From Branchiostoma floridae (Eukaryota > Chordata > Leptocardii > Amphioxiformes > Branchiostomatidae), in NCBI RefSeq assembly GCF_000003815.2, contig NC_049987.1:22770519-22834518 (forward strand): a stretch of DNA of 64,000 nt. The letters run 5' to 3'. The notes under the pieces were generated by a model. It saw only the letters and a list, made by a program, of their open reading frames with translations, searched no databases and was not told the DNA's origin. The number at the start of each line of letters is the position of its first letter. The stretch's first letter is position 1. The position numbers and the translations under genes were made by a program. Positions 10,214 to 60,803 of this stretch are shown piece by piece.

Positions 10214-10369
10214 GAAATTTCAAGCAGACCCCACTAAGTTAGATTCTGACGAGACACAAGAGATATCAGAGATCGGGACATGCCAACTATGGTAGTGGGA
10301 CATGTGGCTTACCGGACAAAGGTTATCCTCTAGGGCAGTGGGTCTGGTATCTAGGCTACGTATAGCTGA

Positions 10370-16024: not shown

Positions 16025-16031
16025 GTCAGCA

Positions 16032-24143: not shown

Positions 24144-27100
24144 TCACGGCCTGGGGGACTTGACGGGTTTACTATGACCCCTGTCGTCATGGGAACCATG
24201 TTTGGATTTGTGCTTGTGTTTGTGCTTGTGTTTCTTCTTCTTCTTCTGTCTGTGTGAGGATGACTGTTCGTGGTGGTGCTTGGAGCCGGACTGGTGTGGG
24301 GATGATTGGCTAGACGATTTTTTATGGTCTGGTCTGGGTTTGGATGCAGACGCCGACACATCTGAAACTGAAGAATAGATAGATTAGATTACTCTGTGTG
24401 ACTTGAGGACTGTTCATGGTGGTGCTTGGAGCTGGACTGGTGCGGGTGGGGGGATGATTGGTTGGATGATTTCTTATGGTCAGGCCTGGGTTTGGATGCG
24501 GATGCCAATGAATCTGAAACTAAAGAATAGATAGATTAGATTACTCTGAGACCTGAGGACTGTTCGTGGTGGTGCTTGGAGCTTGACTGGTGCGGGTGGG
24601 GGGATGGTTGGCTGGACGATTTCTTATGGTCTGGTCTGGGTTTGGATGCAGAAGCCGATGCATCTGAAACATAAGAATAGATAGATTAGATTAATCTGTA
24701 TAAGGACGACTGTTCGTGGTGGTGCTTGGAGCTGGACTGGTGCGGGTGGGGGGATGGTTGGTTAGATGACTTCTTATGGTCCCACTTAGGTTTGGATGCG
24801 GACGCTGACACATCTGAAACTGAATAGATAAAGATTATATGAGTCACTGTGTGAAGATGACTGTTTGTGGTGATGCACATTGCTGGACTAGTTGGGGGTG
24901 GGGGGATTTACATGCATTGGTTCAATGATTTCTTATCATCCGGCCTGGGTTTGGACGCAACTGCTGACACACCTGAAACTATATAGAGAATAGAGTAAGG
25001 GTTAGATTATTTTTGCAAGGACTACATGACGTAGTGCTAGTGGTGGTGCTTGGAGCTGGATTGGTGCGGGTGGGGGGATGGTTGGCTAGACGACTTCTTA
25101 TGGTCCTGCCAGGGTTTGGACACAGCTGCTGATACATCTGAAACTACAGATTGTGAAAATGGTGATACAAAAATCTCAATACATGTATCTTCTCAAAAGG
25201 TTGACTTGATACATCTTTTAACAGGTGGGTGCCCCCTATAAGTTTTGAAAGTTGATTTCCAAGGGGGCCCAACATGAAACAATGTGTTTCGTTCAGTCAA
25301 CAACATACCATGTGAAAACAAGGCATCAAAACAAAATGAGTGTCCATTTCACCTAGGAGCTTTCATCAGATAAAACCTTCTTGATTTCACAGTGGCAAAC
25401 ATTCAAAGGCCAAACCAAAAACATCAAAAGATGGAGTGGAGGTCAGAGGTCAAGGTTCTGCATCAATTCAAAAGGCACATGATGTGATCCTACCTTTGTT
25501 GGCAGCTATCTCTGGAGGCAGCCCGACCTGGGGTGTCGTTGGCTGCTCTTGTTGCTGTTTCTGCACCTCAGGACTGGCTGCTGCCTGCTCTTCTGGTGGC
25601 TTCCCTCCTCCTCCTCCAAGCTGACAGGCACAACAAGGTTCGTGAATAATTTTCGTTACATATACACATATTGAATATCAGCCAGGATGGTGGCCCAGCT
25701 GACTAGACGACCTTCAGAAGTGGAGAACCTTTGTGGACAGACAGACAGCCCCTACGGCTACACAGCTATGGGACTGATGATGATGATATTGAATAATTTT
25801 GTCAGGACAGAAAATCACTGGATAACAAGGTTGTTTATACACAACCAAGGAGTGTAACTAGGAGTGGGTTACGGAAACCATGTTTTATTTTAGACCAGTC
25901 CAGAAAAAATGGACCTGGAAAAATCAGTGGACCTTGTCTAGACCTGGACCTAATCCTCTGGACCTGTAACATACCTGTGCCTGAATTTTCTGTACCAGTA
26001 CCCACTCCTATTTATGATAATACATTTGGTACCGCATTGGTAGCAGCGACACCTAGCTGCAGTACCAGCAATCAGAATTACCCTGAGGAAGCTGACAGAT
26101 GGTCACCGATACGCTGAGTCTAAAATCAAACTTAATGGGTTCAAGTTCTTTTTCTGACACGGTGGAAGATAAACTTTAGGATCCCTCTTTTTTGGTTGTG
26201 CGTGGGTTCAGTGATATTGATAGACAATAGTCTATCACCTTGGTAATCAAAGAAATGTGATGAGGTTGAACTATGACCAATAACCTTTCAACTATGACCT
26301 CTCACCTTGATCTTGATCCTCATCTTGTTGCTGCCCTCCTGAGGCTGGACCTCCAGGGTGGGGTCAGATGGGGTCAAGAGGGGCGTTGTTGGGGGAACGG
26401 GATCCGCCTCTGCCTGGAGAATTGTAAAAAACAACAAACAATAAGTACTGACATCACACAGCGGCATCAGTAAGTGTTGACCTTGTCTTGAAAGAGATGG
26501 ACAGAAACGTTTGTAAAGGCATAGGCTGTAATATGACTTGGTTTGAGGCAGAAGAGCTTCTAAAGCCATCCTAGGCTGGGTGCTATACAGGCTATGTAGG
26601 AATCTGATAGCCAGTGTAAAACTTTCGAACAATCTGTTGTCAAGTCACCACATCTTCTGACAAATTGTCTTCTATTCTTTAAAACTGTGTGGACTGTGAC
26701 TCACTTTTCTCTTCTAAGGGTATAACTATCTCATCTAGCCACAATCTCTACTTAAGAATTCAAATTGATTTCTTTCCTGTTTCGTGACTAAGTACAGACT
26801 AATCTTTGCTTTGCACAGTCTGATGGTGTTATATCTTATCTAGCCAAACATTCTTCTTAAGAAGTCAAATTGATTCCTTTCCTTCATTACTGTGCAGATT
26901 CTGACTTACATGTATCTCTTATCTTAATCTATGGACATAATTCCTACGAATGAGGTCGAATATTGATTCCTGCCCAACTGTGCAGATTCTGACTCACTTT
27001 TCTCTTCATCCCATGTGGTTCCCCTGCACCACTGCTGGACTTGTCGTCCTCTTGTAGAACCGCTGTAGCTTTCTTTCCTTTTTTGTTGTTGTAATATCAT

Positions 27101-30100
27101 GATTCTGACTAAATGGTCTCTTGGCACTGTGTGACCAATCATATTGAGCCACACTCTAAGATATCAAATTGACTTCTTCTTTTACTGCCCAGATTATAGA
27201 TAGACTTCTCGCTTATCCATTCACATCCCTACAAGCTAGCAACAGTTAAGAGACGCAAACTGCAGTTGTTCAGGCACGTGAACCGACATAACAACCTGGC
27301 CAAGACGATCCTACAGGGAAAGGCTAAGTAAACCCTGGCAAGGGAAAGACGAGCCTGGAGACAGCTGTCTGACTAGATAGGTAGGTATATTGCTTCCTGC
27401 CCATTACTGAGCAGACTCACTTTTCTCTTCACCCCATGTGTTTCCCCTGTGCCGCTGCTGGTTTTGTCATCCTCTTGTAGAACAGCCGCTGCCTTCTTCT
27501 CCTTCAGGTTTACGAGTAGCCCGAACTCTGGCGGGGGGAGACACGACGGGCGCGACCGACCAAACATGGTGTAGTACAGGTCCACCAAGTCACATCGCAG
27601 CCTCGCGTCGTACGACAGACCTGAAGAAATAAACTTTGTATTGTGGATCTCAAAATTCAGCCTCTTAGCTGAGCTTTAATCAACAAACATGTCTATATTT
27701 TGAAAATTTAACATAAAGCCATGCCAACACAACACATTTGTAATACTTTGGAATCCTTGAAAATCGTATTTTATCTACTGTAGAAACTAAAAGAATAATA
27801 TTTCTATCATTGATTCATTGTTTTAACATATCACAGTTTGCTATTTGTATGATTTATTATTGTAATGTCCTCACAATTCAGCCCTCCAGAATACCAGGAG
27901 AACTGTTATGTGTACTGTATAAACCACTCTACTACTACATTTTTTACAAATAATATACAGACCCGTGTTCAGTGTTGTCCACAGACGCTCCACCAACGAC
28001 TCCTTGTTAAGTTTTGAGTCTTCCTTGGGGGTGAAGGGAGGATTCTTCAGGAGAAGCTGAAGGAGCTGCAAAAGCAACAACAAATTAGTTACATCCAGAT
28101 AATCAATATGTCAAAACAAATTGAATTACTCAATCTCTTCAACAATTACTGGATAAGATTTGGATATTACTTGTCCACATTTCAGGTGACATCCATCACC
28201 ATTTTTGAGTGACATCCCTTACGTGTGACGTTGACACGTTCAACTGGTTTTCCAGTTACAGATTTGTTCTGTCAGTTTAATCTGATGACACTGAAGAAGA
28301 GTGATGGATGTCATCCCAGAAGTAATTTCCAAATCTTATCCAGTTAGAGATTGAATATCCCAAAGTAGTCTAGGGTGGCCTGGCTTGAACAAAGTCAGAA
28401 TGGTATTATTTCCTTGGAAATTTCCCCAGATAGAAATGCTGTATTTTGCAGCTCAAGGTAGATTCAGAATGAAGATACCATACGTCATACGAATCTGTCC
28501 TGTTACCTTGTGTCTAACATACGGGATGGGGTCAATTTCCACATAGTCCAGCAGCCAGCCCAGCACTTCCTCGTCCTGGTCCACATGCACAAAATCCGTC
28601 AAGATCTCCATGGCGACCAGACGGACGTCGACATACTGTCCAGGGTCGGCATAGCTCTTGAACAGAGCGGCGTTGCTGGGCAGGTGGCCGTTCTTTTGTA
28701 GGGTTCGGATGGCCTTCAGGCAGCTGACGGTGATGGTGAACTGGTAACATGGCAACAACTTCTCCAGGTTCAGGAGTCGCACAACGTCTTCTAACACAGC
28801 CTGTAGATAAAACAGGTAGATTCCTCATCATCAGTACCACAACAACAACAATGACAGAACAGCATTTGGAGCAACTTGTATCATGGCAAAAGGTTTCAAG
28901 TCAAGGTTAAGGTGTCATACAATGGCTTCTAACACGGCCTGTAGATAGGACACTAGGTAGATTCCTGATCATTGTACTCCAAGGTACTTTTTAATGAAGC
29001 ACAAAATAATCATTACCTAACAACTGCCACTGACCCTCTAACAGATAAGACTATAGGATGCATTATCTCCAGAAGTAGCATTTCCTAGGATTAGGGCAAT
29101 TTTGTCTCCATGAGTGGCACTTGCTAGGATAAGGCTAAAAAAAGATTAAAAATTTAAAATTCTTCTCCACTAAGGTAGAAGTTCACTGACTACAGCAGAC
29201 GAAACTACCTGAGTCAACCCACCTTTGTCTCCGGTAACAGAGCCTGTTCTGTCCTGGAGTCCGTGGACGTGTCCAGCATGGTTACCGACGGTGTCACCGT
29301 GGCAGCCAGAGCGTCGATCAGCGAGGCGCGGTAGTAGTTGTCGGAGAACTTGTTCTTCCCGTTGTCGTTGTACTTGATCAGCTGCAGGATGAACTGGAGG
29401 ACGTCCTTCGGGCAGCGACCGTGGGCGTCACGCACCGCTCCCATGGCAACAGGCATGGTCTTCTGCAGGAAATAACCCTGTGGGAAAGGGGAGGAGGGGG
29501 ATTGTTTCTTTAATTTCTGCTGCTGCCATGCCGCGTGCCTGCAAAGCTGGTGTGTTACGCCGAAGCTATATAGAAAGAGATACAGAAAGAAATTTAACTG
29601 ACAATTTAAACCCGTGTGACAGTGTGTTTGTTTCTGCATGTTTCATTGTCAGTCAGAAGATGTATGATTGTAGGGGTGGCCAGTTACCGAAGTTACGAAT
29701 TGAAAGGATTATGATGATAACAGTTACTGTATTTCTCAGAGATCTGATGACATCAAAATAATTAGATTCGTTCTAGATATTGACATTGTGACAAATGTAC
29801 ATGTGAAAGCATTTTGGTGAATGTAGATCAGTTTTCAGTCCGTAGTTCTGTTTGAGTGAGGTGTCCAGAATTGTCAGATATTCAGTAGTCTCAATAGATT
29901 TTATGTAGATTTTTTCTGACTCAAGTAAATTAGAGTGTAAAAGAGGTATAATTGCAACACTGAGAGAGATCCTAAAGATCGTGAGACAGTCGTCTATACC
30001 AGAGAATGTAAAAAAAATTCTCCATACTAAGACACAAAACTGAAAAAGATTTCAAATGGGAAGGACTGTCTTACTGACCTGTAGGTTGGAGAAGTTGTTG

Positions 30101-33100
30101 CACTTGATGAGGTTGGTGTACATCTGGGTACAGAACATGCGCTTGAACATGGACATCATGGCAGGGGGACCCATCCACGAACTCACCATGGCATTGGCAA
30201 CCTGAAGGGTGCAAAAACAACATTAAAACAACCTGAAGGGTGCAAAAACAACATCAAAACATGGACATCATAGCAGGGGGACCCATCCATGAGCTCACCA
30301 TGGCATTGGCAACCTGAAGGGTGCAAAAAACAACTATCAAAACAACCTGAAGGGTGCAAAAGCAACTATCAAAACATGGGCATCATGGCAGGAGGGCCCA
30401 TCCACGAGCTCACAATGGCATTATAATGGCAACCTGAAGGGTGCAAAAACAACATCAAAACATGGGCATCATGGCAGGAGGGCCCATCCACGAGCTCACC
30501 ATGGCATTGGCAACCTGAAGGGAAACATTCACAGTTGTTCCTAGGCATTACAAACTTTCAAGATACATGTATTGAGTAAGGAGGTCACAAAAGCAAGATC
30601 ATCAATAGACTGATACATGCATCAGTGCAATTTGACTACTACATAATGTTGACTCAGTCTGTCAGATGTACAATAAAAGCTGACATTACAACTTTTCTCA
30701 CATACCAGTGCATCAGGAACATTGTGTTGTGGCACACAGAATACACCACACTTATGGCTGTAGAGTATCCTTAACATTAGAAAAACAAAGTAATTATGAC
30801 TCAGGCCATCCTCTTCTGTGCCCTTTTGGATTCCCCCATATTAGCCTGAGTGTCATCCTAGTTATTTTACCAGGGCTCCCATATTTTCCCCTAAACAACC
30901 AGATGGGAGCCCCTGGACTAATTAGAATGACACTCAGGCTACCCCCACCTTGCTGAAACAAAAGGCAACCTTCTTCCACATGCAGTACAGACATGAGTAG
31001 TACACTAAGTACCACACATTACACAATCATATATCAAGTGTTACTTAGGGACTGTACGATATTTATCAGGGGGGGAGGGCTGGTGCATTAGGGGGGGAGG
31101 GCCATGTTAATTTTTTTTGAGGTGGGGGGAGGGCCATGTTAATTTTTTTTGCGATAGGGGGGAGGGCCATGTTAATTTTTTTGAAAGAATTGTTTATACT
31201 ATTTTTTGTTTTGATATCTTGACATGGCCCTAAAACTGATAAAATAAGCCTTCTGAATAGCCTAAAATGCAAGAGCTTCCGGGGGGCTTCGCCCCCCTAG
31301 GTCCACCAAAGTGGCGCTGCCCTGGGCCAGCGTTCCCGCCAGGCATACATCATTCCGTCTACGGACTTATTTTTTTCTGGAAAGACGCACTCGGCTCGGC
31401 TGAGTTTCCCCAAATATTTAAGTTACAAAAGCGGTGCGCGGTAAATATGTGAAGAATCCAAAACTATACACTTTATTTTTTATTTACAACATTTCTTTTG
31501 TTTCAAAAGGACAAAATTTGCGGCAGAAAAGGGTCCGCAATATTGTTGTCAAGCGTCGATCGACAGCACATGGCGCGGCACGCCCCCCTCCCCAGACCGA
31601 CTGTCGATCGCACGCACGTTGGGACGTCTTTTGGCTACTCCTTCAAAGCTAAACTGGCACTGATCACTGCCAAAGACGCAGCAGATCACCCTCCTTCGAA
31701 TAATTTGTATAACGTTCTTGGTCTACTCTACTCTATGTCAAAAGAAATCCAGCGGTGAGCCAAAGATTCCACGCCGAAAACGGGGTTACCTGAGGTCGCA
31801 GGAAACAAACGCACGCTCCTGGAAAATGACGGCGCGGCCTTGTAAAACCCGTAATTTTCCTCTCAAATTGCAGGAAATTCTGTTTTAGAGGGTCTGAAAA
31901 TCCAAATTTTCCCGGGGGAGCATGCCCCCGGACCCCTGCCCCGACGCTGTGAAAAAATCCTGGCAAGAACACTGGTGCCCTTGTGCCCTGACGTCGATTA
32001 AGATTATTTTATCGGTTGTTTTTCTACCCGTTTGATTTTGCCTGTCGGGGGGGAGGGCCATGTTGATTTTTTTGAGGTGGAGGGGGAGGGTCACGTTAAA
32101 TTTTTTTGAGATGGGGGGGAGGGCCATCAAAAAATTTTTTGATCAGACTTCCAATGCACCAGCCCTCCCCCCCAATAAATATCGTACGGTCCCTTACCTT
32201 GCTGAGACAGAACGCGGCCTCCATCCGTACGCGGTAGAAGCAGCTCTCGTTCTCCAGGATGTCGGTGAGCGCCAGGCGAGACGCCGGCGTGGGAAACTGC
32301 TCAAGCGCCATGATCGAGTCGTGCTGCGCGATGATGTCACGCTCGTAACGCAGCTGGTACTGCCACATGAAGTCTGGCTGCTGCCACTCAACCTGAACAA
32401 ACAAACAAACAAACAAACAAGTAAACATTAATGGTACTGCCACATGAAGTCTGGCTGCTGCCACTCAACCTGAACAAACAAACAAACAAAATATAATAAA
32501 TAAACAAGCATTACAGGTACTGCCACATGAAGTCTGGCTGCTGCCACTCAACCTGAACAAACAAACAAACAAACAAACAAGTCTGAAATCTTCAAAAAGA
32601 TGTAGGAAGGCAAAGTCGTAACTGATCCATTGCGCAGTGGGCATTTCAATGTAGAAAGGCCAGCTCTATAAAGGTCTACTGCTCTGTGAAACTTGGAGCT
32701 TCCTTCTGCTTGAAGATGACAGGAGTCCATCATCCAAACCTCCTGACAGATAGATGATTGTCTGCACTCAGTATACTACTCATACTCATGAACTCTAACC
32801 TTTCTGACAAGGGTCAGCTGAGGGTCGACGCGTATCCAGAGGACGGGCGAGTCTGCATCCATGGCGCTCAGGTCCATGTCTACCTCCTCCCCGTTCACAA
32901 GGGGGATCTTCTTCTTCTTGTTCCTGAATATAAAACAACAAAATGTTGGACTTTGAATTTTGTCACAACAACCTTGTCACATCACACCAGTTTCTTTTCC
33001 TTGACTGTGGCTAGGCTGTCCATACGAATATCCCCTGACCACGCAACTGTTGAAAACATCATGGCCAAAGGCACTAGCCAAAACTATCATGCAAGGAACC

Positions 33101-36100
33101 ATCCATGGAGGTAGAAAGAGGGATAGGCAATGGAAAAGCTGGGAGAATAATATCAGAGCATGGACAAATATGACACTGAGTCAAAGAATACGAAAAACAG
33201 AAAACCAAGAAGGGTGGATCTTCTGTGGTGCCCTAATACTAGTAGTTGACTAAGGGACAGATGAGATTAGCTTAGAGACCATACTTTTCTGCAAATGTCT
33301 TTCTGACCAACAAGATGTAGAGCATTTTCCCCTCAAGCCAGTATCACAACATGTTTGAAAGTGATTTGGGAATCGAACCTGCGACTCTTGGAATGACAGA
33401 CCAGCTCATGCCTAGTGGTGTTGTCCTCGATCTGGACAGAGTGGTTGAAGGACCCGTCCAGCTCTTGGATGGTGACGGTCAGCGGACCCTAAAGAAACAA
33501 AAAGGAAGTGTTTGTGAGTATACTATAGGTATAGATTTGAAGTGTTGTTATCCTATTTAGTGGGAGTCAGTAAGACTTGACATTTTTGGAACTTCTTTCA
33601 CACCCTGGAGTGGGAAATCCACACCACCCAACTGCTTTCAGGGTTTAACATTTAGTTTTCCAAAATTCACTTGTCCTTTCGGGCAAAATTTACTTGCCCG
33701 AACCAGCTTTCTGCTTGTCCCAAAGACGTGCAGCAATGGAATTCTTCTATTATTGGCTCTATTTTTCTGTGTTGACCAATGCTTGATACGGTAACTGTGA
33801 TAAGCAACAAGAATATCAATATCTCATGGAAAAATCTTACTTGCCCGATCGGACAAGTGGGGAAGGACATTCACTTGCCCGATGGACACTTTCACTTGCC
33901 AGGGACAATCGGGCTAGTGGACTTGTCCAACCCTGGCTTTACTCTCTTGCGCTCCCATGTGATTTGAAAAAAAAAATGTCCATCAAACTAGCCTCTCTAG
34001 TTTGTTACAAGACGAAAGGATTTCTTGGATAACTTGCAAGATTACAGAAAACTATGTTTTGGGATCTCAAGTACATGTATTACATAACAGCATCCTCACC
34101 ACATATTTCTGGATCCCGTGTTCTCCCACTTTCTGGTTCAGCTCCAGCTCCACTAGGTTCCGTTTCCTGTTAAACACGAAGCTGCCGCTGAATTGCACCA
34201 CTCCCCCCTGATATACCCACTGGTCTAACAGGAGGTGGATGTCCTTACCTGGGGAAAAAACAAATAAATAAACAAACAAACAAACATATAAACAGGCATA
34301 ATTGGTGAACCACTCTGCCCTGGTATACCAACTGGTCGAGGAGCCGGTAGATATCCTTACTTGTACCAGAGAAAAGCAGCATGTTTGACCAGAGTTGGGT
34401 AAGAGGCTAAAGTTTAAAGGCTAGGCCCTTTGAACGGAGCTGAGAGAGTAAATATGAGTTTGATGAAGCTATCAATGGACAGGAGCATGTTGGACCAGTG
34501 GGAGTTGGAATAGAGGTTAAAGGTTACACCCTTTGACCTGACCTGAGAGGATGATAATGAGTTTGACGAAGCTGGCAGGCGACAGCAGCATGTTGGACCA
34601 ATGGGAGTTGGGTTAGAGGTCAAGGGTTAAAGGTTATGCCCTTTGAACTGACCTGAGACAGTGGATATGAGTTTGACGAAGCTGGCAGATGACAATAGCA
34701 TATTGGACCAGTTGGTTGGGCTGTACTTCTGACTGGCTGCTGATGTAGCGAGGGACAATAGCTTGTTGAAGACCTGGAACACAAAATAACAAGAGATGAT
34801 ATTTCTTGCAGTGTGTGTGGTTCAGTTTCTATCATTCAAGCTTGTTAAATGCCCTGGGAGTAAAATTCCATCTCAGATAGTCAACAATTCAACTGTTACA
34901 ATTTTTAGCATTTGCTGCTGAATTACAGTACAACTCTTGTCTAGACTACTCAATTGGTTGAAGGTACCAAAAAGTTAACTTACCATGCAGTTTTACAGCA
35001 GACGTCTTTCTGGCAGATACAAGTATGAATGATCAACGTTGCTCATTTAGGATTTTAAATCGTACCTTGTGGAGAGATATCATAACTCTAACACATGTAC
35101 ATCTTGGTAAAGCTTGTATTAGACTTAGTAAGTTACCTGTAACAACGACTCAAAGCCGATCTTCTGTTCCACCAGTCGGGTGATCAGGTGAGACTTCTTG
35201 GCGGCCATCTTGCTGTGGATCCAGGACGTGGTGTGGGGATGGCGTGTGTGGAAATAGCGCCCTCTAGCGCTCGTGTCCTTACTGTGCAGTACTACCAGCT
35301 CCTTCTCTGTCTCGTAGTGAACCAGTTTCTGCTGCTCGCTGTGTATCCAGTACCTGTAAAGTACAGTAGTCTATGTAATCTTTTTCTGTTTAGTACAATA
35401 CTCTACATTAATGTATGATAGCAATGTTTTTCTGTAGAGTACACTTTGTTATATGTAATGTTTCTGGACAGTACAGTACTCAATGTAATGACTTTTTTGT
35501 TTCGGTCTCTTACATTTTTGTATAAGTCCATGTGTGCTGGACAGCTAGTGGTCGGAAGACACAATTAATTATCATTCATTCATTCACTCACTGATTCACT
35601 CACTCACTAACTCACTGACTCATACATTTATTCATTCATCTTCTCAACTGTACTCTTTCTACCCTTCTTGTTTCGGTGTCTCATGTGGGCTAAGCAACTA
35701 GTAGACATGTTGATAAACATTCATTCATCCATCCAATTCACCTGTACTCGTTCTTCCCAAAGAACTTCTTGATGTACTGTCCGAGCAGGTAACCAGCGAT
35801 GCCCTTCCCCACCCAAACATCCGACCAGGAGTGCATACAAACATAACAGCCAAAGAACTGCTGAGCCACAGCGTATGCGATCACTCGCCGAGTGTACGGA
35901 GTCTGGTCGATGATCCGTGGGGTGTGCAGAAGGTTGGTGTTGAAGATAGTGAGGGAGGCGAAGGAGCCAGAGTTTTCGTAGCTCTGGTCGACGAAGACGG
36001 CTTTGTAGCAAGTGTAAGGATACCTAGAAAAACATAAACAACCGATGTTAATGGACAAAATGACTTACAAACTCAGATTACCATGGAAGCTCATCTGTGT

Positions 36101-42829: not shown

Positions 42830-43088
42830 AAATCCAAAAACCGCCATTTTGTGAATCCTCAACTTTGACCTCACTCCCTGTACTTCTCACCCAAATGTAA
42901 AGCATGGAAAATATATGAATGTTCATGAAGAATATCTACGTGCTTAAACTTTGATGTACAATATATCAATAAACATATTTTTCCATGTAACTGACTTAAA
43001 TTAGATGTTTTAATGCATCTCTCAGGGTTATTTTTATTGAATATTTATTCCCTGTTGCGTTTAGTCTTGTTGTTTTCGTTAGTGCAAC
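42829..43088. promoter_or_regulatory. Probable bidirectional TAF2/MPHOSPH8 promoter
   Basis: About 250 bp between the likely TAF2 leader exon (-) and the MPHOSPH8 ATG (+). CCGCCATTTTG at 42841-42851 is a YY1-type element when read on the minus strand (CAAAATGGCGG). The MPHOSPH8 start itself is 'caacATGGCG'. No TATA box is seen at the expected spacing. Divergent housekeeping genes commonly share such promoters. Confidence 0.5.
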
Positions 43089-49000: not shown

Positions 49001-52000
49001 GTGTGGAGGGCTCCACCAGTCTGACAGACATGTCCACAGACGAGGAGGCAGTGAAGCGGAGTATGTGGTGTAGTTTGGCCCTCTCTGACACTAAACATGT
49101 TCTCCCCTCCCCACACACAGAGGCAGAAGCTGGAAGACTCCAGTGTGAAGGGTTCAACAGTGAAGAGGAGTATGTGGTGTAGTTTGGCCCTCTCTAACAC
49201 TAAACATGTTCTTCCCTCCCCATGTACAGAGGCAGAAGCTGGAAGACTCCAGTGTGGAGGGCTCCACAGTGAAGAGGAGTATGTGGTGTAGTTGGCCCAC
49301 TCTGACACTAAACATGTTCCTCCCTCCCTATGTACAGAGGCAGAAGCTGGAGGACTCCAGTGTGGAGGGCTCCACCAGCCTGACAGACATGTCCACAGAT
49401 GAGGAGGCTGTGAAGAGGAGTATGTGGTGTAGTTTGTCCCACTCTGACACTAAACATGTTCTCACTCCCCATGTACAGAGGCAGAAGCTGGAGGACTTCA
49501 GTGTGGAGGGCTCCACCAGTCTGACAGACATGTCCACAGATGAGGAGGCAGTGAAGAGGAGTATGTGGTGTAGTTTGGCCCACTCTGACTCTAAACATGT
49601 CTTCCCTCCCCATGTACAGAGGCAGAAGCTGGAAGACTCCAGTGTGGAGGGCTCCACCAGTCTGACAGACATGTCCACAGATGAGGAGGCAGTGAGGAGG
49701 CAATGTGATATAGTTTGGCCCTCTCTGACACTAAACATGTTCTCCCCTCCCCATGTACAGAGACAGAAGCTGGAGGACTCCAGTGTGGAGGGCTCCACCA
49801 GTCTGACAGACATGTCCACAGATGAGGAGGCTGTGAAGAGGAAACGTGGCCGCCCCAGGAAGTCTCCTGTCGACCAACCGTCAACTAGTCGGTCAAGGGA
49901 CTCCTCAAGGTACACTTCCCAGCATGCCTAGGTTCATGATTCCCAGCATGCCATCATGTTTCCCAACATGCCTCATGCCTCCAAGCATTTTTTAAAAACA
50001 CAGTACAGTGGTCACTTCATGATTTTTTTTTTATGAAGACTTAAATGTCACTTTGAAGTTTCAGGTGCTCCTACAGTACTTGAGGAATAGTCATGCCTTC
50101 AAGTATCAGAGTTACCAACCTAGGATTGATATGTTCAAAAATTCAAATTTTCCCAGAACTATTGTGGAGTGGAATTTTTTATCACCAAGCACAGTAGGGG
50201 CATCTACGCTGGATAGTTTTGAAATCTGAAATGTCTTGCAGATAGATGTGCAAAACGTAAGTCTGACGGGTGTAATATGACCAGCTGCTGCCGCTCCAGG
50301 TGCTTGTTAAGCTGTTGTGTTATGCCTAGTTTTAGGGAGGAGGCTGGTGCAGGTAACTCTGGTACTTGAAAGCTTTGTTATTTCTCTTCTGGGCTGGTAT
50401 TAGGAACTTAGCAGAGGAATGAAATCTTCAATGTGTTGTCTGAATCTCCAGGGAGCCTTCTCGACACCAGCGTGATGAACAGATGGAGAGAGAAGAGGAA
50501 GATGAAGATGAGAATTCAGGAGAGAAGGAGGAAGGGAGTGATGATGATGATGACAGCAGCAGTTCTGAAGAGGACACTGTAAAGGACACGTTCTGGAGAG
50601 ACCTGGAGCAGGGCAAGATCAGTCTGGAGCTGTTCACTGGGGACATGTACTCGAAGGTATGTAACTATGGTAACCGTACTCAAACAAACACTGGTACACC
50701 TAGTAGATATTTGTGTAGGATTACGTTTGGAGCTCTTCACTCGGGACATGTACTCCAAAGTAGGTACCACACACAAGCAAGGAAACACACACAGAAACAA
50801 ACAAACAAACAAACACATTGTGTCATAAGCAGGGCAAGATCAGCCTGGAGCTCTTCACTGGGGACATGTACTCCAAAGTAGGTACCATACACAAATAAAC
50901 AAACAAACAAACAAACACGTGTACCCCAAAGTATGTATCAGACACATAAACAAACACTGGTACAAGTAGATATTTGTGTAGGATTCTATGTTCCAGTCTG
51001 GAGCTCTTGACTGGGGACATGTACTCCAAAGTAGGTACCATACACAAACAAACAAACAAACAAATAAACAGATATATTGTGTCATAAGCAGGGAAATATC
51101 AGTTTGGAGCTCTTCACTTGGGACATGTACTCCAAAGTAGGTACCACACACAAGCAAGCAAACAAGCAAACAAACACACACATTGTGTCATAAGCAGGGA
51201 AAGATCAAGCAGAGGTTATTTTATAGTTTTGCTTGATCTAATTTCTATGATTTGTAGTGGCAGTTTTTTCATACTCCCTAAAAAGAGACCTCGTCTCTAC
51301 TAGGGAAACTTATATCAAAGATAAGACAATTTAAAAAAGGAAAAAAAAAACATCCAGCCAAAACCTTAGCTTGGAGAGTATGTTTATCCCAAGAACTCCA
51401 AACCTGCAACACTGTTTTCACTACTTTGACCACAGGTGAAAGGTCGAAGGGCAAAGATTGAGTCGGAGAAGAAGACCCGTCAGCAGTCGAGGAGACAGCG
51501 GTACAGGGATGGGGATGATGATGAGGAGGAGGATGAAGAAGAAGAGGATGGGGAGGAGGAGGAGGAAGCTGGGGAGGAGGAGGAGAAGAGAGCAGGGAGG
51601 AGGAGAAGCCAGGAGTCAGCAGGGCGTGGGCGGGGCAGGGGGAGGGGCAGAGGTCGGGGGCAGGAGAGAGAGAGGGAGCGAGGGAGAGGCAGAGGGAGAG
51701 GTATGTAAAAATAGAATACCACATGGTGGATTCCGTATCAAATACTATCTTCCAAGGTACCCAATTGCATCCTTGCAAATGCGACCACATTTTCCTTGGT
51801 GCAACTTGATCTTAATCACAGGTAGCACAGTGCGCAACCTGAAATTTTACAGTTGGAACACTGCTTTTCCCCCACCTACATGCATAAGCTTTAAAAATTT
51901 GTATGTATTTTATTTCTGGATAAGATTAAACATAAGTAGTGACATATAACTGAAAGAAAAGATGAATTAAATGGATAAGTAGCTGATTTGAAGAAATTAA

Positions 52001-55000
52001 TGACTTGAAAGTGGGGCAACCTGAAATGGTGACTGCGGAACCTGGCTTTTGACTCAGGTTGCTGCCTGGGAAACCTGGCTTAAAAAAAGTATTTCCAGCA
52101 CAGAGAGTGGTGGTTGATGGTAGTTGATTTATGATTTTGCAGGCCGGGGTCAGAAGCCTGGTCGGGATGGGAAAGCCAGGTCCTCAACCAGTTCTGAACC
52201 GGACAGAGACCAGGGACGGACCAGCAAACATGGCCGCCAGTCCAGCAGGGAGAGAGAGTCGCTCTTCTCTTCCCGGGATGTCTTTACTGATGAGAGCGGA
52301 GATGAGGAGGGGGAGGATGTCAAGGAACCAGGTCAGCAGTTGTTTTAAGATACTTTTGAGCTGAGATGTCAAGGCAAGCAGTCTTTTTAAGTTTTTGTAG
52401 CTTTCTTGTTTAGAACAACCTTTTGAGATTGCAGAAAAGATACTGTAAAAGACTACATGCAACTTTCAATTTTGCAATTCAGTTAACAGAGTCATAAATC
52501 AAATGTTACAGAAACTGAAATGACAGGTTTCAATTGGCATATCATCAGATATTTCAACAGCATTTACTGTAGCCAATGTAAGATTTACACAAAAATAATT
52601 ATAATACAACTGGCTATTTTGCAAGCTCAAAAAATGTGGGCGCTTTCTGAAGTATTTTGATCCCTGGCAAGTGGAATGAATGTAGTAGTTGACGAAAGAT
52701 TTTACAGTATGTGTAGCTAAAGTTGTTTCCCGTGTTCACAGATGACAAGCTGTCAGAAAGGGCAGAGGTGACCGGGAAGGGTTCACGGAACATACAAGAA
52801 CCTGTGGCGACCCCTGACATGAGTGTGGTGACCCCTGACCCAAGTGTGATGACCCCTGACCCTAGTGTGATGACCCCTGACCTGGAGCTGCGCCTGTCGG
52901 AGAGTTCCTCACAGGTGTCACAGAAGGAGCCTGACCTTGACATGCACCTGTCGGAGAGTTCCTCAGCTGCAGAGGACTCCACGTCTTCAGCACAGGTGAG
53001 GGGGCACAAACTCTTTGTGTTTTTTATACACATTCACAACCGAGTGGTGTATACAAGACCAAGGCTTGATTACTGTGATTTTAGCAGCAACACCTAGCTG
53101 CAGTGAATAACAATTAAGGTCAATAACTTGGACCAGAAAGCTGTCACCATGGTTACTGGTAAAGGAGCATATACAGTCTGTGGTGTAACAAGTGGTAGGA
53201 CAGAGCTGGAGGAGCTGGTAACTGCAGATATGATTGTGATTAAGTAAGAATAAACAGAATAGTAGTTTGTTTGACTTGACCATTTGAAGACCATGTGACA
53301 CATTATGTATTTGGTTTCGAATACATGATATACTGCCTTTCTAGTTTGTTATCATTTGTCTTTATTCTATGATAGAAATTACAGAACTTGGCCCAGCATG
53401 TCTCCGGCCAGACGACCTCCCCCTCCAGACCAAAACAGCTGGTGATCTCCATCCCCTTCAACATCCTGCCCACCCCCCGCCAGGCGACCAGTGAGCACGA
53501 CAAACCCGACAGTGTCATGGAGAAGTTTACGCAGATCGTGGGCGTGCCCTGTGTTCTGAAGGGCGCTGATGCAACCGGTAATGATGATATTATCTTTATT
53601 GGAAATTCATGGCTGAAGACTTATTGCAAGTATACACAGAAAATACATTGTACAACACTTAAATTAATGCATTTAAGTTTGCTGGGATGTAATTTTGCAG
53701 TAGCAGCAAAATGGATTGTTCACGGTGGTTTGGAGTTCGTTGTAGTGCCATATGCTGTAGTCACATACTGTAATGGAAAATTTTTTGCTGTGGTTTGAGT
53801 ACATGTTGGAGCAGCCACAGCAATAACCATGAACATAAACCACTGCAAACATTTCTGCCTACAGTTTATAATGAAATACACAAGTGAAATAAAAGTAGTG
53901 AAGTACCGCTACTTCTAATCTAAAATGGTTCTTATAAGTTATAGTGTTTGATTTTCTTCGCAGGTCCTACTGCACAGCAGGGAGGGGAAATGTCTAGGCA
54001 TATAGCCTTGCAGCAGGCTCCACAGCAGGCACAATCCATTCAGCAGGCCGCTGGTCAGATAGCCTTGCAGCAGGCACCACAGCAGGCACAATCCTGTCAG
54101 CAGGCTGCTGGTCAAATAGCCATGCAGCAGGCTTCACAGCAGGGGCAACCCAGTCAGCACACTGCTAGTCAGATAGCTTTGCAGCATTCCATTCAGAGGG
54201 TTGCAAGCCAGATAGCCTTGCAGCAGGCTTCACTGCAGGCCAGTAGCCAGGTAGCCTTGCAGCAGCCACCACAACAGGCCGGCAACCTTATAGCCTTGCA
54301 GCAGCCACCACTGCAGGTACCACCTGGCCATATAGCCTTGCAGCAGGCTCTACAGCAGGGGATATCCAGTGTGCAGGTAACTAGCGGGATAGCCTTGCAG
54401 CAGGCTGCACAGCAGGCTCCTAGCCAGGTAGTCTTGCAGCAGGCAACACTGCAGGCACCACCTGGCCATATAGTCTTGCAACAGCCACCACAACAGGCTA
54501 GCAGCCTTATAGCCTTGCAGCAGCAACCAAAGCAGGCTACCAGCCAGATAGCCTTGCAACAGCCACCACTGCAGGTACCACCTGGCCACATAGCCTTGCA
54601 GCAGGCACCTCAACAGGCCACTCGCCAGATAACACTGCAGAAAGCTTCTAACCAGATAGCCTTGCAGTCTGTCGAGATAGCCTCGCAGCAGCCACCTCAG
54701 CAGCCACCACGCAGTGCCCAAGTACAAGGTCAGCTGACCTCGGACCCAGAAAAGGTCATAGGTCATAGGTTACCAGAGGTCACAGATAAACAGGCTACGC
54801 AGAGGAAAGGGGAAGCATCAGTGGAAGATCAGCAAAAAATGGCTGCTGGCAGCAAGGGTGACACTAGTGCAACTAAGGAGGCTTCAGACAAAAGGTCATC
54901 ACCACACGAACTAAAGGAAGATGTGAAAGTTGAAAGGTCACCACCACATGAAGATACCAAAGTTGAAAGGTCACCACCATGTGAAGATGCCAAAGTTAAA

Positions 55001-58000
55001 AGGTCACCACCATGTGAAGATGTCAAAGTTGTAAGGTCACCATCTCAGGAAGTAAAGGAAGATGCCAAAGCTGAAAGGTCACCACTGCAGGATCCAAGGA
55101 AGAAGTTCAAAGTTGAGAGGTCGCTGTCATCTGAGACAAAGAAGGTCAAGGTTGAAGAAGCAGAAGACACTATCGAAGACGTAGTTGGACAGATGGAACT
55201 GCAACTGCAGAAGGAGATGAGCAAACAAGTCTCCAATGTTGTGGCAGGAAAAATGGAAGAAAAGCAGGAGAAAAAAGATGGAAGCAAGCCAAGGATCGAG
55301 GAGAAGGACAAACAGGTAGAAAATTCAGGGAAAACTGCTTCCCAAAATGTCGATTTTGAAAAGGAGTCTTCTTCTAAGAAAGAGGAAAATAAAGACGTTG
55401 TCAGCAAAGAAATAGATTCTCCAGAGGAAAAAGAGGATCAAGACAGCAGTAGGGAAGACATGGAAACAAAAAACACCGACAGCAAGAAGAAGAAGAGGAG
55501 AAGGAAAGAGCAGGAAAAAGAGGGGAAGAAGCAGGATAAAGGGAAGAGGAGACCGAGTCAGGAGAGGCAGGAAGAGAAGATGGAGATGAGGCCTCCCAGA
55601 CGAGGAAGGACCGCAGCAGTTGTGGAGGAGGAGGATGAAGGTAAGAACAGTAAGAGGAAACCTGAAGAATGCTGAGAGGGCTGTATGAAAGAAGGGCCTA
55701 ATATTTACCGTCAGATAATGTGTATGCGGTTCATGTGCCCAATGTTAATACCATAGGATGCAGCTATATTAGGCCTGTGTTTAAGTAGACAATACCAATG
55801 TCTTGAGCTTATGTTTTGTTGAAGCATATAGAGAAACATTCAAACTTACAAGTTCCCTTATTACTGGAACTAAATGATCAGCAACTGTTTGTTATGTAAG
55901 AAAGGGCAAGCAATTCCCTCAGAGAATGTGTACATTGTACATGGCTTTCTTATGTAATGATCATCGGGTTATGGAAATCTACTGTTTGTATAATATATGT
56001 TGTGTCATAATGTACAGTGAGGGATAGTCACATAGAAAGGAGCATTAAGGATGTTGTGTCATATCTTCCCCCATGCAGACAGCGGCCAGAGTGATGTTTC
56101 TTATGAGTTTGATCTGGACGAGGTGCCATTTGATGAGGATTGGCTGGTAAGAATCACTTAGTATCTTGACGAGATACATGTAGTATTCTGCAGAATATTG
56201 TTCTTGGGTCCATGTCATGTATTTATCAACTTTTGTATCCTGAACTGTTTTTCATTTTTTCTGCTCTATTTGCAATTGTTGTTGGAACATACAGTTTTTT
56301 TTTTGTTATCCTTTCGAAGATATAGGAGAAACTTTGTATCTGTATCGGATTCCCTATGATTGTCTGAAAAAGTATGACTATATCTATCAGGTGAAGGCAA
56401 ACCTTAACAACAGTGTTCCTGGCCGGAGAAACTGCCTTATTAGAACTAAAAACTATGGAGCAGGTCACACAGAGGTGTGTAATTGCTAGGCTTGCAAAAT
56501 TTAGACTGATGTGTATGCTGACGCAAGGGATACGGGGAGCCCCTGTTTTGGAAGCTACCAACTCAAAGATATTGAGGACAAATAGGGGTTGTCATGCAGA
56601 GATAAGTACATGTTCAACTGTCCTTCACAGGTTTGTACAATCTGTACTATTCAGCTGCCAAATGTTGGCTATTCATATTCAAAAAATCAAACCATGCATG
56701 AAAATAAGGTGGAAAATTGTTTGTATTGCATCTGTATCCCTATCCTTATGCCAGGTGTCCGAAAAAGTATGACTCGTCACTGTACGTGAAAGTCAACTTG
56801 TTTCTGATGGTGTGTAATTGCTAGGCTTGCAAAATTTAAACTGACGTGTATGCTGACACAAGGCATTATGGGAGCAAGTTTTGGGGAGCTACCAACTTGA
56901 AGATAGGGATGTCGAATAGGGGTGGTCAGGATGACAGACAAGAATGCAGAGATTACTACATGTACGACTGTTTATACAGTGTGTAATCTGCTGCCAGATC
57001 TAGATTTTGTCTCTTCATATTCATACCAAAACCATGCATCTCCCCCTGTTGTACCAGGCCCTGTCACAACAGAAAACTGAGGAACTGCCAGCCAGGGACA
57101 TCACCAATGGTGAGCTGGGTTTTGTTGATACAGGTTGTAACTTGTGGCAATGTACATTTTCAGTCTATCAGTTCCATTTTGGTACCAAATGTAAGACAGG
57201 CTTGTTTTTTGTATTATATACATTCCAATGTGCATCTGTATATAGCTAAATTTATAGTGGATTATCATACTTATGTTGTATTAAAATAACAGTCATGTTC
57301 GAAATATATTTTTGTCTATTTCATGTCATAAAGTTAAGCTTTTTGGGATGAATGGAGTGAAATTTTTCTGTCTTATTGTCTGAGTTGGAGGGACAGGTTG
57401 TGGAGACAGCCTTGGACTTGTGTAACACCTTTGTCTTTTTCCCATTTCTCTAGATCTGCAGGGTCACAAACATAGCAGAGATGATGATAGGAATATGTCA
57501 ACAATTAAAAAAGGTCTTTATTCATTTATTAATTGTAACCCTGTCCCATTGTCCAGCGGAGTTCTGTGAGGCAGTGAAGAAAGGGGATCACCGTACGGTA
57601 AAACAGGCGCTGCGCTCAGACAACCTGTACAATCTGGAACACACAAAAATTACACTATATGCCCACACATACAATGTAGAAAGCTCGTACCTACAAACTT
57701 ATATGTGCTACTTTGTCCTTATTTTCCGAGTTTCGTGAGGCAGTGAAGAAGGGCGACCACCAAACAGTAAAACAGGCACTTCGTTCTGACAAGCTGTACA
57801 ACCTGTTACACGAGGACCTCAGTGGGATGACCCCTGTCATGTTCAAAATAAATTTTCTATCTATTTCGTTTCAGGAACTTAGGCTTTTGGGGAAGAGTGG
57901 AGTGAAATTTTCTGTCCTAACAAGTACAAATCCATCCAGGAATGGAGGGACAGGTTGTAGAGACAGATCTGGACTTAAGTAACACCTTTTCCGTTGTTCA

Positions 58001-60803
58001 GCGGAGTTCTGTGAGGCTGTAAAAAAAGTGTGATCACCGAACAGTAAAACAGGCACTGCGCTCTGACAGGCTGTACAACCTAGAACACACAAACACTACA
58101 TGTATATTCCTACACAGAAAGCTCTTACCAACCTCCTTGCTCTTATCGACAATCTTTTCCTATACATGTAACACTATCCTTATTTCCAGCGGAGTTCCGT
58201 GAGGCTGTGAAGAAAGGCGACCACCGTACGGTAAAACAGGCACTGCGTTCCGACAAGCTGTACAACCTGGAACACGAGGACCCCAGTGGGATGACCCCCG
58301 TTATGTTCGCGGCCGCCGAGGGTCACGACGAGATTCTCAAGGCGCTGCTGCTCAAGGGGGCAAAGGTCAACGCCCGGCAGAAGTACGGGGCCACAGCACT
58401 CATTTATGCTGCCGAGAGGGTAGGTCCTGCAAACAATACCTTATACACACCATTTATGAGATTACTATACAATCATGCATCTTTTCCTTTGTCTTCTAAT
58501 ACCTGACCTATGCTACTGTGAACAGGCAATTTGTATGTTTTTTTCATGATTTTCAAGCTTGGATGCTTGGATGCAAATTTTTAAACAAAAGTCAGCACTT
58601 GATATCTACATGTATGTAACGCTAGTCCACCTTTATCCGCGGAGTAACCTATATCTGTTGTTTTTAAAACACACGGTTTATAGGGATACCAAGTCAACGG
58701 TCGGTGGTGTCAAACTGCAATATTTCAAAATTATTCTCATTTCAAAATATTGCAGCTTGGCCACCGTCCGTTGATTTGATGTCCCTAAATACCCGTTTTT
58801 GTTCTAAAGAAAATGGGTATGGGTTACCCCGCAGATAAAGGTATTACAATTACTAGCATTACAATTGCTAAGTGATTTTACTTACCTGTACATCTCTTCG
58901 GGGAAAACATCATCAGTCCTACAATGTTTTGCACCCATGTTTCCCCACCAGGGCCACAGGAACACTGTCGCCTTGCTGATCGAGTGTGGAGCATTTGTCA
59001 ACATTCAGCAGTACACAGGGGAAACTGCACTGATGAAGGTACATGTAATCTAATGCTACTGTTCATACTTTATGTGGACACTACACCAGTGTTCATTTCT
59101 TTATTCAGTAAAGGCCTAAGGGCAAATGAAAATTTTGACCTACTGTAGCATTTTAAGCATATTTAACCAAAGTTATATGTCTGATACTGCATGTACATGT
59201 ACATGTAGGTGTCTGGGATTTAGTTAGCTACTAGGGCTGGGTACCGGTACAAAACATTCAGGTCCAGGTCCGGTTCAGGTCCAAAGGATCAGGTCCAGGT
59301 CCGGACCTGAACCTGGACCTGATTCAGTATGACACATACCAATGGTCCATTTCACTACAAAGAAATCTGTTTGGTGGAGTATTAGACTTACACTGGCGTT
59401 TTAAAATCCTACAACGCTAACTGCACCTGTGCGATTGGCTGTAAAGCTTGGTAGAAATTACTATAAACTCTACTCTACTTCACTCTTGTTATTTTCTTTA
59501 ACCTGCAAGCGCCAAAACGTGTGAATGCCTGATAAGATAATCTGTTAATTTTCTAATAGTTCCAACATCCGGTCCACCTAATCTTTTCAGGTCCGGTTTT
59601 TCTGGACCGGTCCAATAAGAAAAACCGGTTTTGTACCGGTACGCTGTACCGATACCCAGCCCTATTAGCTACGTGTATTTGTTGGGTTTACAGAATGTTC
59701 ACTACATACCAACAAGATTGTCTAGGATTCATGTACATCATAATGTTGCTTCCAGCCTACTTGTACATGCATAATATTACGGTCTAAGGGCGAGGGGGAC
59801 ATGGTTTGGACATGGGACTTGCTTTATGCTTACTTGGCATAAGGAAAGGTACAATTTTAGGCCTGTAGGAAGGACTGTTCATAGTCAAACCTGGCCAGGC
59901 AACTGCCTGCAGCCACAAGCAAAAGTAAAGTTTAACAGTTTTGTTCAATTTTATATAGTTAGGACCCTCTGCTAAGCAACCAAGTGTCATTTTTTTGTTT
60001 GTTTAATTACTGTATATGGTTTAATTGTGTGTTTTGTAGAATGGTCAGTTAGTCATTTGTTTGTTTATTTGTTCTCAGGCCTGTAAGAAGGGTTTCAAGC
60101 AGATTGTGAGGCTGCTTCTGGAGGCCGGTGCTGACCCCTACCTGACCTCTAGCACGGAGAACACGGCGCTACAGCTGGCAAAACTGTACAACAACCCCGG
60201 GCTGCATGAGCTCATGAGTCTGCACATCAACAGGTAACCTCTAACCTCTGATCTATAGCCCCTAACTCGCAACATTTAGGCAAAACTGTTCAACAACCCC
60301 GGGCTGCATGAACTGATGAGCCTCCACATCAACAGGTAACCTTTAACCTTTAGTCTTTAACCCCTAACCCCCAACCTTAATGTAGCGGTTCAATAACCTC
60401 CTTAGCGGTCTATTCTCTACGCAACATCATTGTATGTCAGTTTAGGTCAGATCTCTATAATAAACATTTTCATCTATCTCATGTTAAGGGTTTGGGGATG
60501 AATAGGATAATTTTTTTACTGCTGTTTTCTGTCCTAAGAAGCAAATTTAATCCAGGTACAGAGAGACAGGTCTTGGACACAACTCTGTATCCAAGTGACA
60601 CCCAGGTGACACATTTTTCACTTAAAGTTAAATTTGTTTTCTCTGCAGGATTACAAACGTAGTAGAAATGACGGTAGGCAAGTACCTTGCAAACACGGCC
60701 AAGATCCTGACTCCGCCCCTGCTGCCCATCCACTGTCACCCCATCAGGGAGTCCGTGGAGTACTACCTGTCATTCAACCATGTGCAACAGCCAATCATAC
60801 AAG
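43089..60803 (+). CDS. MPHOSPH8: M-phase phosphoprotein 8 (HUSH chromodomain-ankyrin protein), 3' incomplete
   Basis: Fifteen exons in phase: 43089-43229, 47541-47696, 49761-49909, 50452-50656, 51436-51700, 52143-52331, 52742-52995, 53376-53577, 53964-55640, 56079-56146, 57058-57109, 58190-58419, 58952-59038, 60079-60233 and 60649-60803. They encode about 1328 residues, against 860 for the whole human protein. Domains: acidic N-terminus; chromodomain (about 36-90: EEDVFEVEKIV...LYRVRWKGFGSSEDTWEP) with aromatic-cage residues Phe, Trp and Phe in place of the usual Tyr; AT-hook KRGRPRKSP in exon 3; acidic and RG-repeat region (exon 5); Gln-rich repeat and charged KVERSPP repeats (exon 9); ankyrin repeats (exons 12-14: DPSGMTPVMFAAAEGHDEIL, YGATALIYAAE, TGETALMKACKKG, ENTALQLAK); and the start of the C-terminal domain (exon 15). 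In vertebrates the protein reads H3K9me3 and works with TASOR and periphilin in the HUSH silencing complex. The last exon ends with a donor and the terminal exons lie beyond the window. Confidence 0.93.
43733..43990 (+). mobile_element. Full-length tRNA-derived SINE (MPHOSPH8 intron 1)
   Basis: A tRNA-like head with A-box-like 'gtggcgcaatcga' and B-box 'gagttcgaaccct', then the family body 'tgccaccgatcttgttgaag', 'gggaaaggcactttacacaa' and 'cctcacttaactcaggtg', ending in a (TAGAG)n tail near 43975-43992. It is the best-preserved copy here. Confidence 0.85.
44042..44089. repeat. Hairpin-forming inverted repeat
   Basis: Arms 'tttgtagcctatata' and 'tatataggctacaaa' are perfect 15-bp complements. 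The inner 'cgacc' and 'ggtcg' add five pairs around a short loop. Confidence 0.9.
44772..44795. repeat. 24-bp perfect palindrome
   Basis: The half-site ACCAAGGACGTT is followed directly by its reverse complement, with HpaI-type GTTAAC at the centre. Confidence 0.97.
46966..47105 (+). mobile_element. Dispersed repeat found four times in MPHOSPH8
   Basis: Blocks 'aaatatat', 'tttcatgtcatg', 'tggatgaatgaggtgaa' and 'ggacggagagacc' occur in the same order at about 57290-57425, 57840-57965 and 60458-60600. The ends are not resolved and the class is unknown. Confidence 0.55.
47197..47480 (+). repeat. Two partial copies of the chromodomain exon (MPHOSPH8 exon 2)
   Basis: The acceptor plus the first bases of exon 2 ('ccagggccagacgctgt') recur at about 47208-47240, degraded, and at 47410-47455. 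The second encodes GQMLYRVRWKGFGSSD in frame before breaking off. An upstream 'aacataaggacaagg' block is copied with them. Confidence 0.92.
48148..49760 (+). repeat. Tandem array of 13 copies of MPHOSPH8 exon 3 before the terminal one
   Basis: Copies begin near 48148, 48239, 48377, 48519, 48660, 48769, 48880, 48979, 49120, 49230, 49338, 49479 and 49619, each after a 'tgtacag' or 'acacacag' acceptor. Seven are full units (RQKLEDSSVEGSTSLTDMSTDEEAVKR, period about 140 bp). Four are short units missing TSLTDMSTDEEA-like residues (period about 110 bp). Two, at 48148 and 48880, carry early stops. Each keeps the intronic 'gtagtttggcc...cactaaacatgttct' segment. Only the fourteenth, at 49761, continues into the AT-hook and a standard donor. 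Confidence 0.95.
50725..51145 (+). repeat. Four partial copies of MPHOSPH8 exon 4 donor edge
   Basis: 'ggagctcttcactggggaca' plus 'tgtactccaaagtaggtacc' (LELFTGDMYSK frame plus donor) occur at about 50729-50768, 50838-50886, 50999-51042 and 51099-51145, separated by (AAAC)n-rich spacer. Confidence 0.95.
53580..53660 (-). mobile_element. LINE 3' end abutting MPHOSPH8 exon 8 donor
   Basis: 'atgatattatctttattgg' and 'aaattcatggctgaagactt' match the 3' tail and terminal UTR of the LINE family (compare 272-300), beginning at about position +4 of the intron. Confidence 0.6.
53662..53872. mobile_element. Third copy of the 'tactgtaaatgca' MITE
   Basis: 'aaaatggattgttcacggtg', 'aaccatgaacataaaccact' and 'gcaaacatttctgc' in the same order as 5993-6213 and 13258-13482. 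Confidence 0.7.
53990..54730 (+). repeat. In-frame coding minisatellite (Gln-rich, MPHOSPH8 exon 9)
   Basis: About 245 residues built from degenerate units around IALQQAPQQAQ and IALQQPPLQVPPGH, encoded by repeats of 'atagccttgcagcag'. The vertebrate protein has no counterpart. A second small repeat follows at about 54920-55090 (KVERSPPHED-type units), then a Lys/Glu-rich probable coiled coil. Confidence 0.92.
57553..58095 (+). repeat. Three partial copies of the first ankyrin exon (MPHOSPH8 exon 12)
   Basis: Copies at 57556-57645, 57728-57845 and 58001-58090 repeat the start of exon 12 (EFREAVKKGDHRTVKQALRSDKLYNL frame). The first and third keep 'ttgt(c/t)cag' acceptors. The second runs furthest (to GMTPVMF) and breaks directly into the dispersed repeat of 46966. 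The third has a frameshift after AVKK. Confidence 0.95.
58613..58862. mobile_element. Palindromic MITE, second copy (MPHOSPH8 intron 12)
   Basis: 'gtaacgctagtccaccttta' on the left and 'gcagataaaggtatt' to 'actagcattac' on the right are inverted, with 'ggtaacctatatc'-type inner arms shared with 2447-2671. Confidence 0.75.
59232..59664. mobile_element. hAT-like MITE with perfect 8-bp target duplication
   Basis: The ends TAGGGCTGGGTACCGGTAC and its slightly diverged inverse (gtaccgatacccagcccta) are flanked by a perfect TTAGCTAC duplication (59224-59231 and 59665-59672). The interior has repeated 'caggtccaggtccgg' motifs. 433 bp, non-coding. Confidence 0.92.
60278..60344 (+). repeat. Partial copy of MPHOSPH8 exon 14 donor edge
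   Basis: 'ggcaaaactgttcaacaacc' to 'ccacatcaacaggtaacc' repeats 60177-60240, including the donor, with a few substitutions. Confidence 0.95.

Follow-up and report, generated by a model that had tools for sequence, protein, structure and literature searches.

Partial exon-edge copies in the amphioxus TAF2 and MPHOSPH8 genes are an unusually dense case of mirage minisatellites

Why are the introns of two adjacent amphioxus genes so rich in partial copies of the exon edges beside them? The original prediction described such copies in a window of 64,000 nucleotides of the Branchiostoma floridae genome (the whole stretch of DNA analysed here), and offered three causes: local duplication anchored near splice sites, selection tolerating only partial copies, or an assembly artefact. 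Exon borders were placed by splice-aware protein-to-genome alignment, guided for TAF2 by the TAF2 of the solved structure and for MPHOSPH8 by open reading frames of the window itself. Junctions of the two models are GT-AG, apart from the last MPHOSPH8 donor, which is set one base early, and the spliced frames are open. For the TAF2 draft, query residues 7–985 align to TFIID subunit 2 with 1418 bits. The MPHOSPH8 draft contains a chromodomain, and its C-terminal part resembles M-phase phosphoprotein 8 (8qfb_B, E = 2.3e-57), with several ankyrin or designed ankyrin proteins ranking higher; the CaSR-like gene of the window carries domains PF01094 and PF00003. TAF2 and MPHOSPH8 lie head to head with their start codons 1.28 kb apart (41807–43089), which suggests a shared promoter region. 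The window also holds a reverse transcriptase ORF of 556 residues (7571–9238, minus strand, PF00078), by its look a non-LTR-like fragment, and a same-strand dispersed repeat of about 93% identity occurs in two TAF2 introns (33683–33935 and 38890–39172).

Each splice edge was used as a query against the 2.5 kb on either side, with reversed-flank decoys as the control. This edge finder detected one or more same-orientation partial copies at 15 of the 67 edges of TAF2 and MPHOSPH8 (10 of 33 acceptors and 5 of 34 donors; Table 1), with at least 46 copies in total, 36 of acceptor edges and 10 of donor edges. The total is a lower bound because the finder demanded a reach of 5 bases past the edge; a third copy of TAF2 exon 3, nearer the exon, lies outside it. 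As repeats the copies exceed chance, since the same finder gave copies at 0 of 67 edges with reversed flanks. Among the 16 copy-bearing edges of the original prediction, 15 are clear, its MPHOSPH8 exons 12 and 14 being taken as the present exons 11 (acceptor) and 13 (donor); the sixteenth, the TAF2 exon 10 acceptor, is weak, appearing as a 67% chain in a relaxed comparison only, with a similar peptide noted. The predicted range of one to thirteen copies per edge and their occurrence on either the acceptor or the donor side agree with our measurements, and so does the keeping of exon orientation: matches no more than 2.5 kb apart over the whole window (E ≤ 1e-6) comprise 149 direct and 5 inverted rows, one pair being able to give two rows. 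The CaSR-like gene is free of copies as predicted (0 of 246 points), with no repeat coverage across its span.

Table 1. Gene models, exon-edge arrays and further repeat families, in window positions
Feature	Position	Strand	Remarks
TAF2 gene	24144..41807	-	21 coding exons; splice-aware protein-to-genome alignment
MPHOSPH8 gene	43089..60802	+	14 coding exons modelled in window; 3' end probably goes on
Array, TAF2 exon 21 acceptor	24249..25150	-	5 copies
Array, TAF2 exon 18 donor	26952..27504	-	1 copy
Array, TAF2 exon 16 acceptor	28739..28982	-	1 copy
Array, TAF2 exon 14 acceptor	30146..30522	-	3 copies
Array, TAF2 exon 13 acceptor	32355..32582	-	2 copies, one identical over 67 bases
Weaker copy, TAF2 exon 10 acceptor edge	34194..34420 (extent approximate)	-	Relaxed chain only
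Array, TAF2 exon 9 donor	34374..34720	-	2 copies
Array, TAF2 exon 7 acceptor	35931..36586	-	3 copies
Array, TAF2 exon 6 acceptor	37155..37411	-	1 copy with 6 intron bases
Array, TAF2 exon 4 acceptor	39316..39825	-	3 copies
Array, TAF2 exon 3 donor	39853..40537	-	2 copies by edge finder, plus a third at about 40295-40374
Array, MPHOSPH8 exon 2 acceptor	47135..47587	+	2 copies
Array, MPHOSPH8 exon 3 acceptor	48118..49849	+	13 copies; unit lengths about 109 and 138-141 bases
Array, MPHOSPH8 exon 4 donor	50607..51207	+	4 copies
Array, MPHOSPH8 exon 11 acceptor (earlier numbering 12)	57534..58308	+	3 copies
Array, MPHOSPH8 exon 13 donor (earlier numbering 14)	60177..60399	+	1 copy
Tandem family, intron only	26727..26883	.	
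Tandem family, intron only	31091..32127	.	
Tandem family, intron only	36712..37029	.	Period 56
Repeat family, intron only	56474..56928	.	
Two repeat families, intron only	57292..57989	.	
Two repeat families wholly within MPHOSPH8 exon 9	53999..55122	+	Periods multiples of three

The original prediction knew of no precedent for this pattern, and in that respect it has to be corrected: the exon-edge copies of TAF2 and MPHOSPH8 are the known amphioxus "mirages", here in an unusually dense case. The name reportedly comes from a 2002 paper by Cañestro. As described in the accessible text of two later papers (PMC3087553, PMC3902484), mirages are minisatellite-like tandem duplications over an intron/exon boundary, on either side of the exon, and are found in Adh3, the globins BflGb6 and BflGb9, PGBD5, and troponin C, the last cited by the PGBD5 paper. 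The same text gives unit lengths of 10–72 bases for Adh3, 150–160 for the globins, and 60 and 108 for PGBD5, an identity of 81–100% for the BflGb6 mirage, and AG or GT retained in many, not all, units. The copies in TAF2 and MPHOSPH8 are likewise boundary-spanning tandem copies on the acceptor or donor side that mostly retain AG or GT. Published units of 10–160 bases compare with smallest offsets of 31–427 bases in our 15 edge-bearing families, and the BflGb6 identities with about 63–100% here. Published mirages, so far as the accessible text goes, affect one or two boundaries per gene, whereas 15 or 16 of 67 edges are affected in these adjacent genes; and that text gives no rate against random points, whereas such rates are given below for TAF2, MPHOSPH8 and CLTC. 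The accessible portion of PMC2206037 contains no mention of edge copies. Two further systems are comparable in part. Tandem whole-exon duplication also yields local tandem copies of exon sequence, but these comprise a complete exon with both splice sites. The Rogers model of intron gain by AG/GT tandem duplication, for which potato RdRp is reportedly a case (PMC4974935), likewise duplicates splice sites, but it yields a new intron, whereas the copies in TAF2 and MPHOSPH8 sit in existing introns.

The unusual feature of the locus is its local repeat density. Self-comparison and Tandem Repeats Finder reveal many tandem arrays in the window, and tandem coverage reaches 22–25% in the 10-kb blocks from 30001 to 60000, compared with 7, 5 and 14% in the first three blocks. 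The comparison loci outside the window were CLTC, the clathrin heavy chain gene of the same genome, and 20 random 10-kb stretches whose places were fixed before reading; 4 of the 20 contain N, one of them at 6033 of 10,000 bases. Mean tandem coverage in the random stretches is 7% (median 3.7%, highest 37%). Points with copies number 30 of 480 in the random stretches and 18 of 243 in window positions 1–17300. The maximum of 37% belongs to a single stretch (L011, G000:C8:2743001-2753000), and other dense regions therefore exist. Within the window, long coding repeats that keep the reading frame, of the types IALQQAPQQA and EDAKVERSPP, are present in the 1677-base exon 9 of MPHOSPH8, and all nine Tandem Repeats Finder rows for this exon have periods divisible by three.

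If splice sites anchored the duplication, through a link to splicing or to R-loops for instance, exon edges should be favoured over other positions. Rotation tests shifted the edges relative to the repeats of their own gene, for TAF2, MPHOSPH8 and CLTC, whose model has 29 exons (the first incomplete, the first donor GC, and 963 bases of one intron left out). Edges were hit about as often as expected: 10 of 40 against 9.3 in TAF2 (coverage 0.23), 5 of 26 against 6.7 in MPHOSPH8 (coverage 0.26) and 1 of 56 against 0.9 in CLTC (coverage 0.016), or 16 of 122 against 16.9 when pooled. At the other three margins the pooled values were 12–16 of 122 against 15.7–17.2 expected, and an edge excess was absent in all 12 rotation settings (P for excess 0.23 to 0.91). 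The same finder was run on random intronic points lying 100 bases or more from any exon, and copies were present at 90 of 250 in TAF2 (edges, 10 of 40), at 75 of 250 in MPHOSPH8 (edges, 5 of 26) and at 6 of 227 in CLTC; for exon-interior points the figures are 12 of 120 in TAF2 and 58 of 120 in MPHOSPH8, the latter owing to the coding repeats of exon 9. The original prediction had named equal copy rates around random intronic points in a genome-wide survey as evidence against itself, and within TAF2 and MPHOSPH8 copies are indeed no rarer at random intronic points than at edges. Counted edge by edge, the copies show no preference for splice edges, and splice-site anchoring is unsupported at that level.

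The intronic points include those inside edge-bearing arrays, and whole repeat families were therefore also placed at random. Among families outside exons, 15 of 21 hold an edge against 8.1–9.6 expected (P 0.0007–0.008, margins of 3 and 5 bases), and each edge-bearing family holds exactly one edge, both of which speak for anchoring. At a 10-base margin, however, the excess fades to 11 of 21 (P 0.08–0.23). Restricting the families to identities of at least 85% leaves 10 of 15 holding an edge (P 0.006–0.023), and to at least 88% or 90%, 6–7 of 9 (P 0.007–0.10); at the 10-base margin these filtered sets give 7 of 15 and 4 of 9 (P 0.14–0.52). By gene, the values are 10 of 13 for TAF2 (P 0.0175–0.18) and, for MPHOSPH8, 5 of 10, which becomes 5 of 8 once families inside exons are dropped (P 0.075–0.60); these single-gene tests are weaker, most of all for MPHOSPH8. 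A per-family preference for one edge, up to about twofold, is possible. The family-level excess may also be a detection effect, in that an array containing a constrained exon would stay recognisable longer. The anchoring proposal thus fails per edge and keeps a margin-dependent excess per family, and we consider a splice-site-anchored mechanism unlikely. The control comparison suggests that local repeat density and selection can give an edge-centred look even where no mechanism targets splice sites.

The copies are partial, as the original prediction stated. None of the 23 repeat families encloses an exon in full (2.9 expected; P 0.013–0.017, all families), a deficit that loses significance in the identity-filtered subsets (P 0.16–0.19) or in each gene with footprints treated as segments (P 0.066 and 0.098). 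The splice site remains attached, also as claimed, with AG or GT retained in 44 of 46 copies. In 45 of 46, a splice site of the same type as the one copied is present within 14 bases of its expected place with a score above the lowest 10% of real sites, as judged by matrices built from real sites that are kin to the copies and by taking the best site within 14 bases. Partner sites of equal quality accompany 9 of the 36 acceptor copies and 7 of the 10 donor copies, compared with about 13 of 36 and 6 of 10 estimated by chance from background densities. Partner sites being at about background, each copy would be a fragment with a splice site on one side, which exon definition should pass over, and a reading of the copies as cassette exons was rejected on the same count. 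The proposal that selection tolerates only partial copies accords with both the missing whole-exon families and partner sites no commoner than background, and selection would be the cause of the missing whole-exon copies.

Together, these data lead us to a reading that we hold to be probable, namely that the copies are mirage minisatellites produced by dense local minisatellite turnover with loss of whole-exon copies. Short tandem duplication, by unequal exchange or slippage, would be locally very frequent with more or less arbitrary breakpoints, and would fall on small exons by chance. Whole-exon duplicates would be spliced in, and their absence presumably reflects purging by selection. One-edge duplicates would survive as intronic fragments, because a single splice site without a dependable partner should not be defined as an exon, and they are expected to be silent in mRNA. 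The copies would derive from the working exon, sometimes probably from the exon of another haplotype, and then decay.

Divergence of the copies bears on an assembly artefact, in which mis-joined haplotypes or repeats would set the exon edges of other alleles in tandem. Across the 11 multi-copy arrays, divergence from the exon edge ranges from 0 to 37%, and 33 of 42 copies diverge by more than 10%, beyond allelic diversity, although amphioxus heterozygosity is as high as 3.2–4.2% in the accessible text of PMC12862219. A globin mirage was once wrongly assembled in a draft genome, but resequencing of the PGBD5 mirage argued against assembly error, both as given in the accessible text of PMC3087553 and PMC3902484. 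The identical 67-base copy at TAF2 exon 13 would suit a mis-join; arrays of up to 13 copies and stops in 5 of 46 copies would not. An artefact is very unlikely to account for most copies, and is possible for near-identical pairs. We also rejected a conveyor-belt order with the youngest copy beside the exon: only 57 of 110 pairs are concordant, and copies farther from the exon are no more diverged (P 0.23).

It is extremely improbable that the units are mobile elements carrying splice sites, like introners. The good splice sites on the copied units and the presence of a reverse transcriptase ORF within the window would fit such an origin, but the units are made of host exon and intron, and the single unit searched for dispersal, that of MPHOSPH8 exon 3, had 7 matches to an exact 23-base piece in the 513 Mb assembly, all of them in its own array.

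The codon pattern of the copies is the feature that dead copies do not predict. Of the 46 copies, 44 are informative, the TAF2 exon 16 copy and the MPHOSPH8 exon 4 copy at 50728 aligning to intron only. Across the same 11 arrays, with the working exon excluded, columns variable from copy to copy are few at codon positions 1 and 2 (29/191 and 25/189) compared with position 3 (84/189), while intron columns vary at 182/449 and splice dinucleotides at 2/22. Changes unique to a single copy number 25, 22 and 64 at the three positions, and the third-position share of 64/111 exceeds the one third predicted by dead copies (P 1.6e-7). Third positions make up 37/63 of the unique changes after removal of the most changed copy per array, 24/32 of the states common to some copies only, and 17/20 of the differences between the exon and all copies. 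A dead copy beside a constrained exon would, by reasoning, allow up to one half at third positions, and one copy per array gives 75/117, above one half (P 0.0015); for the most diverged copy per array the third-position test gives P 0.12. The TAF2 exon 3 copy at 40072 differs by 11 silent codons and 1 changed.

Two accounts of this pattern involve function. The exon parts might be used, being included in some mRNAs and maintained by protein-level selection, as the codon and splice-dinucleotide columns, the copy at 40072 and the kept AG or GT sites would all allow. Stops are present in 5 of the 46 copies, however, so that copies need not code; 23 of 46 are flagged for a frameshift, a figure that padding of the copies makes a maximum; and partner splice sites are at no more than background. 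Moreover, the accessible text of PMC3087553 and PMC3902484 reports regular splicing as undisturbed by the Adh3 and globin mirages, and copies derived from other haplotypes would carry a codon signature like this one. We regard such use as quite improbable. The broader idea that the copies are not wholly dead, with selection on coding sequence and splice sites acting through partial splicing-in or through haplotype exchange with the working edge, is unlikely as well; if true, mirage arrays would form a reservoir of tested exon-edge variants.

Under the favoured reading of turnover and decay, departures from the working position at staggered times would, by reasoning, account for part of the codon pattern. 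What is left, for copy-unique changes an excess at third positions of 0.0895 per cell minus about 0.032, is of the same order as the synonymous diversity of B. floridae, 0.0397 in the accessible text of PMC12862219, as expected if the copies recently were working edges on other haplotypes. The same text indicates a small CpG share of mutations, which weakens a mutational explanation.

Its density of decoy exon edges makes the TAF2/MPHOSPH8 locus a natural system for studying how splicing passes over them. It also bears on the globin paper's proposal, in the accessible text of PMC3087553 and PMC3902484, that mirages are a route to new introns. In mirage-rich amphioxus genes, errors are likely in both gene models and short-read mapping. 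A further locus, the VCP gene of the same genome, apparently carries another strong mirage array, judging from 8 matches of one exon part, overlapping residues 87–134, within 2.5 kb (G000:C15:18637735-18640230); terminal fragments of six other proteins served as queries in that search, and 28 of its 75 candidates were scored. Additionally, closely spaced candidate acceptors occur at two exons of the window, with spacings of 6 bases at TAF2 exon 21 (24361–24367) and 5 bases at MPHOSPH8 exon 11 (58190–58195).
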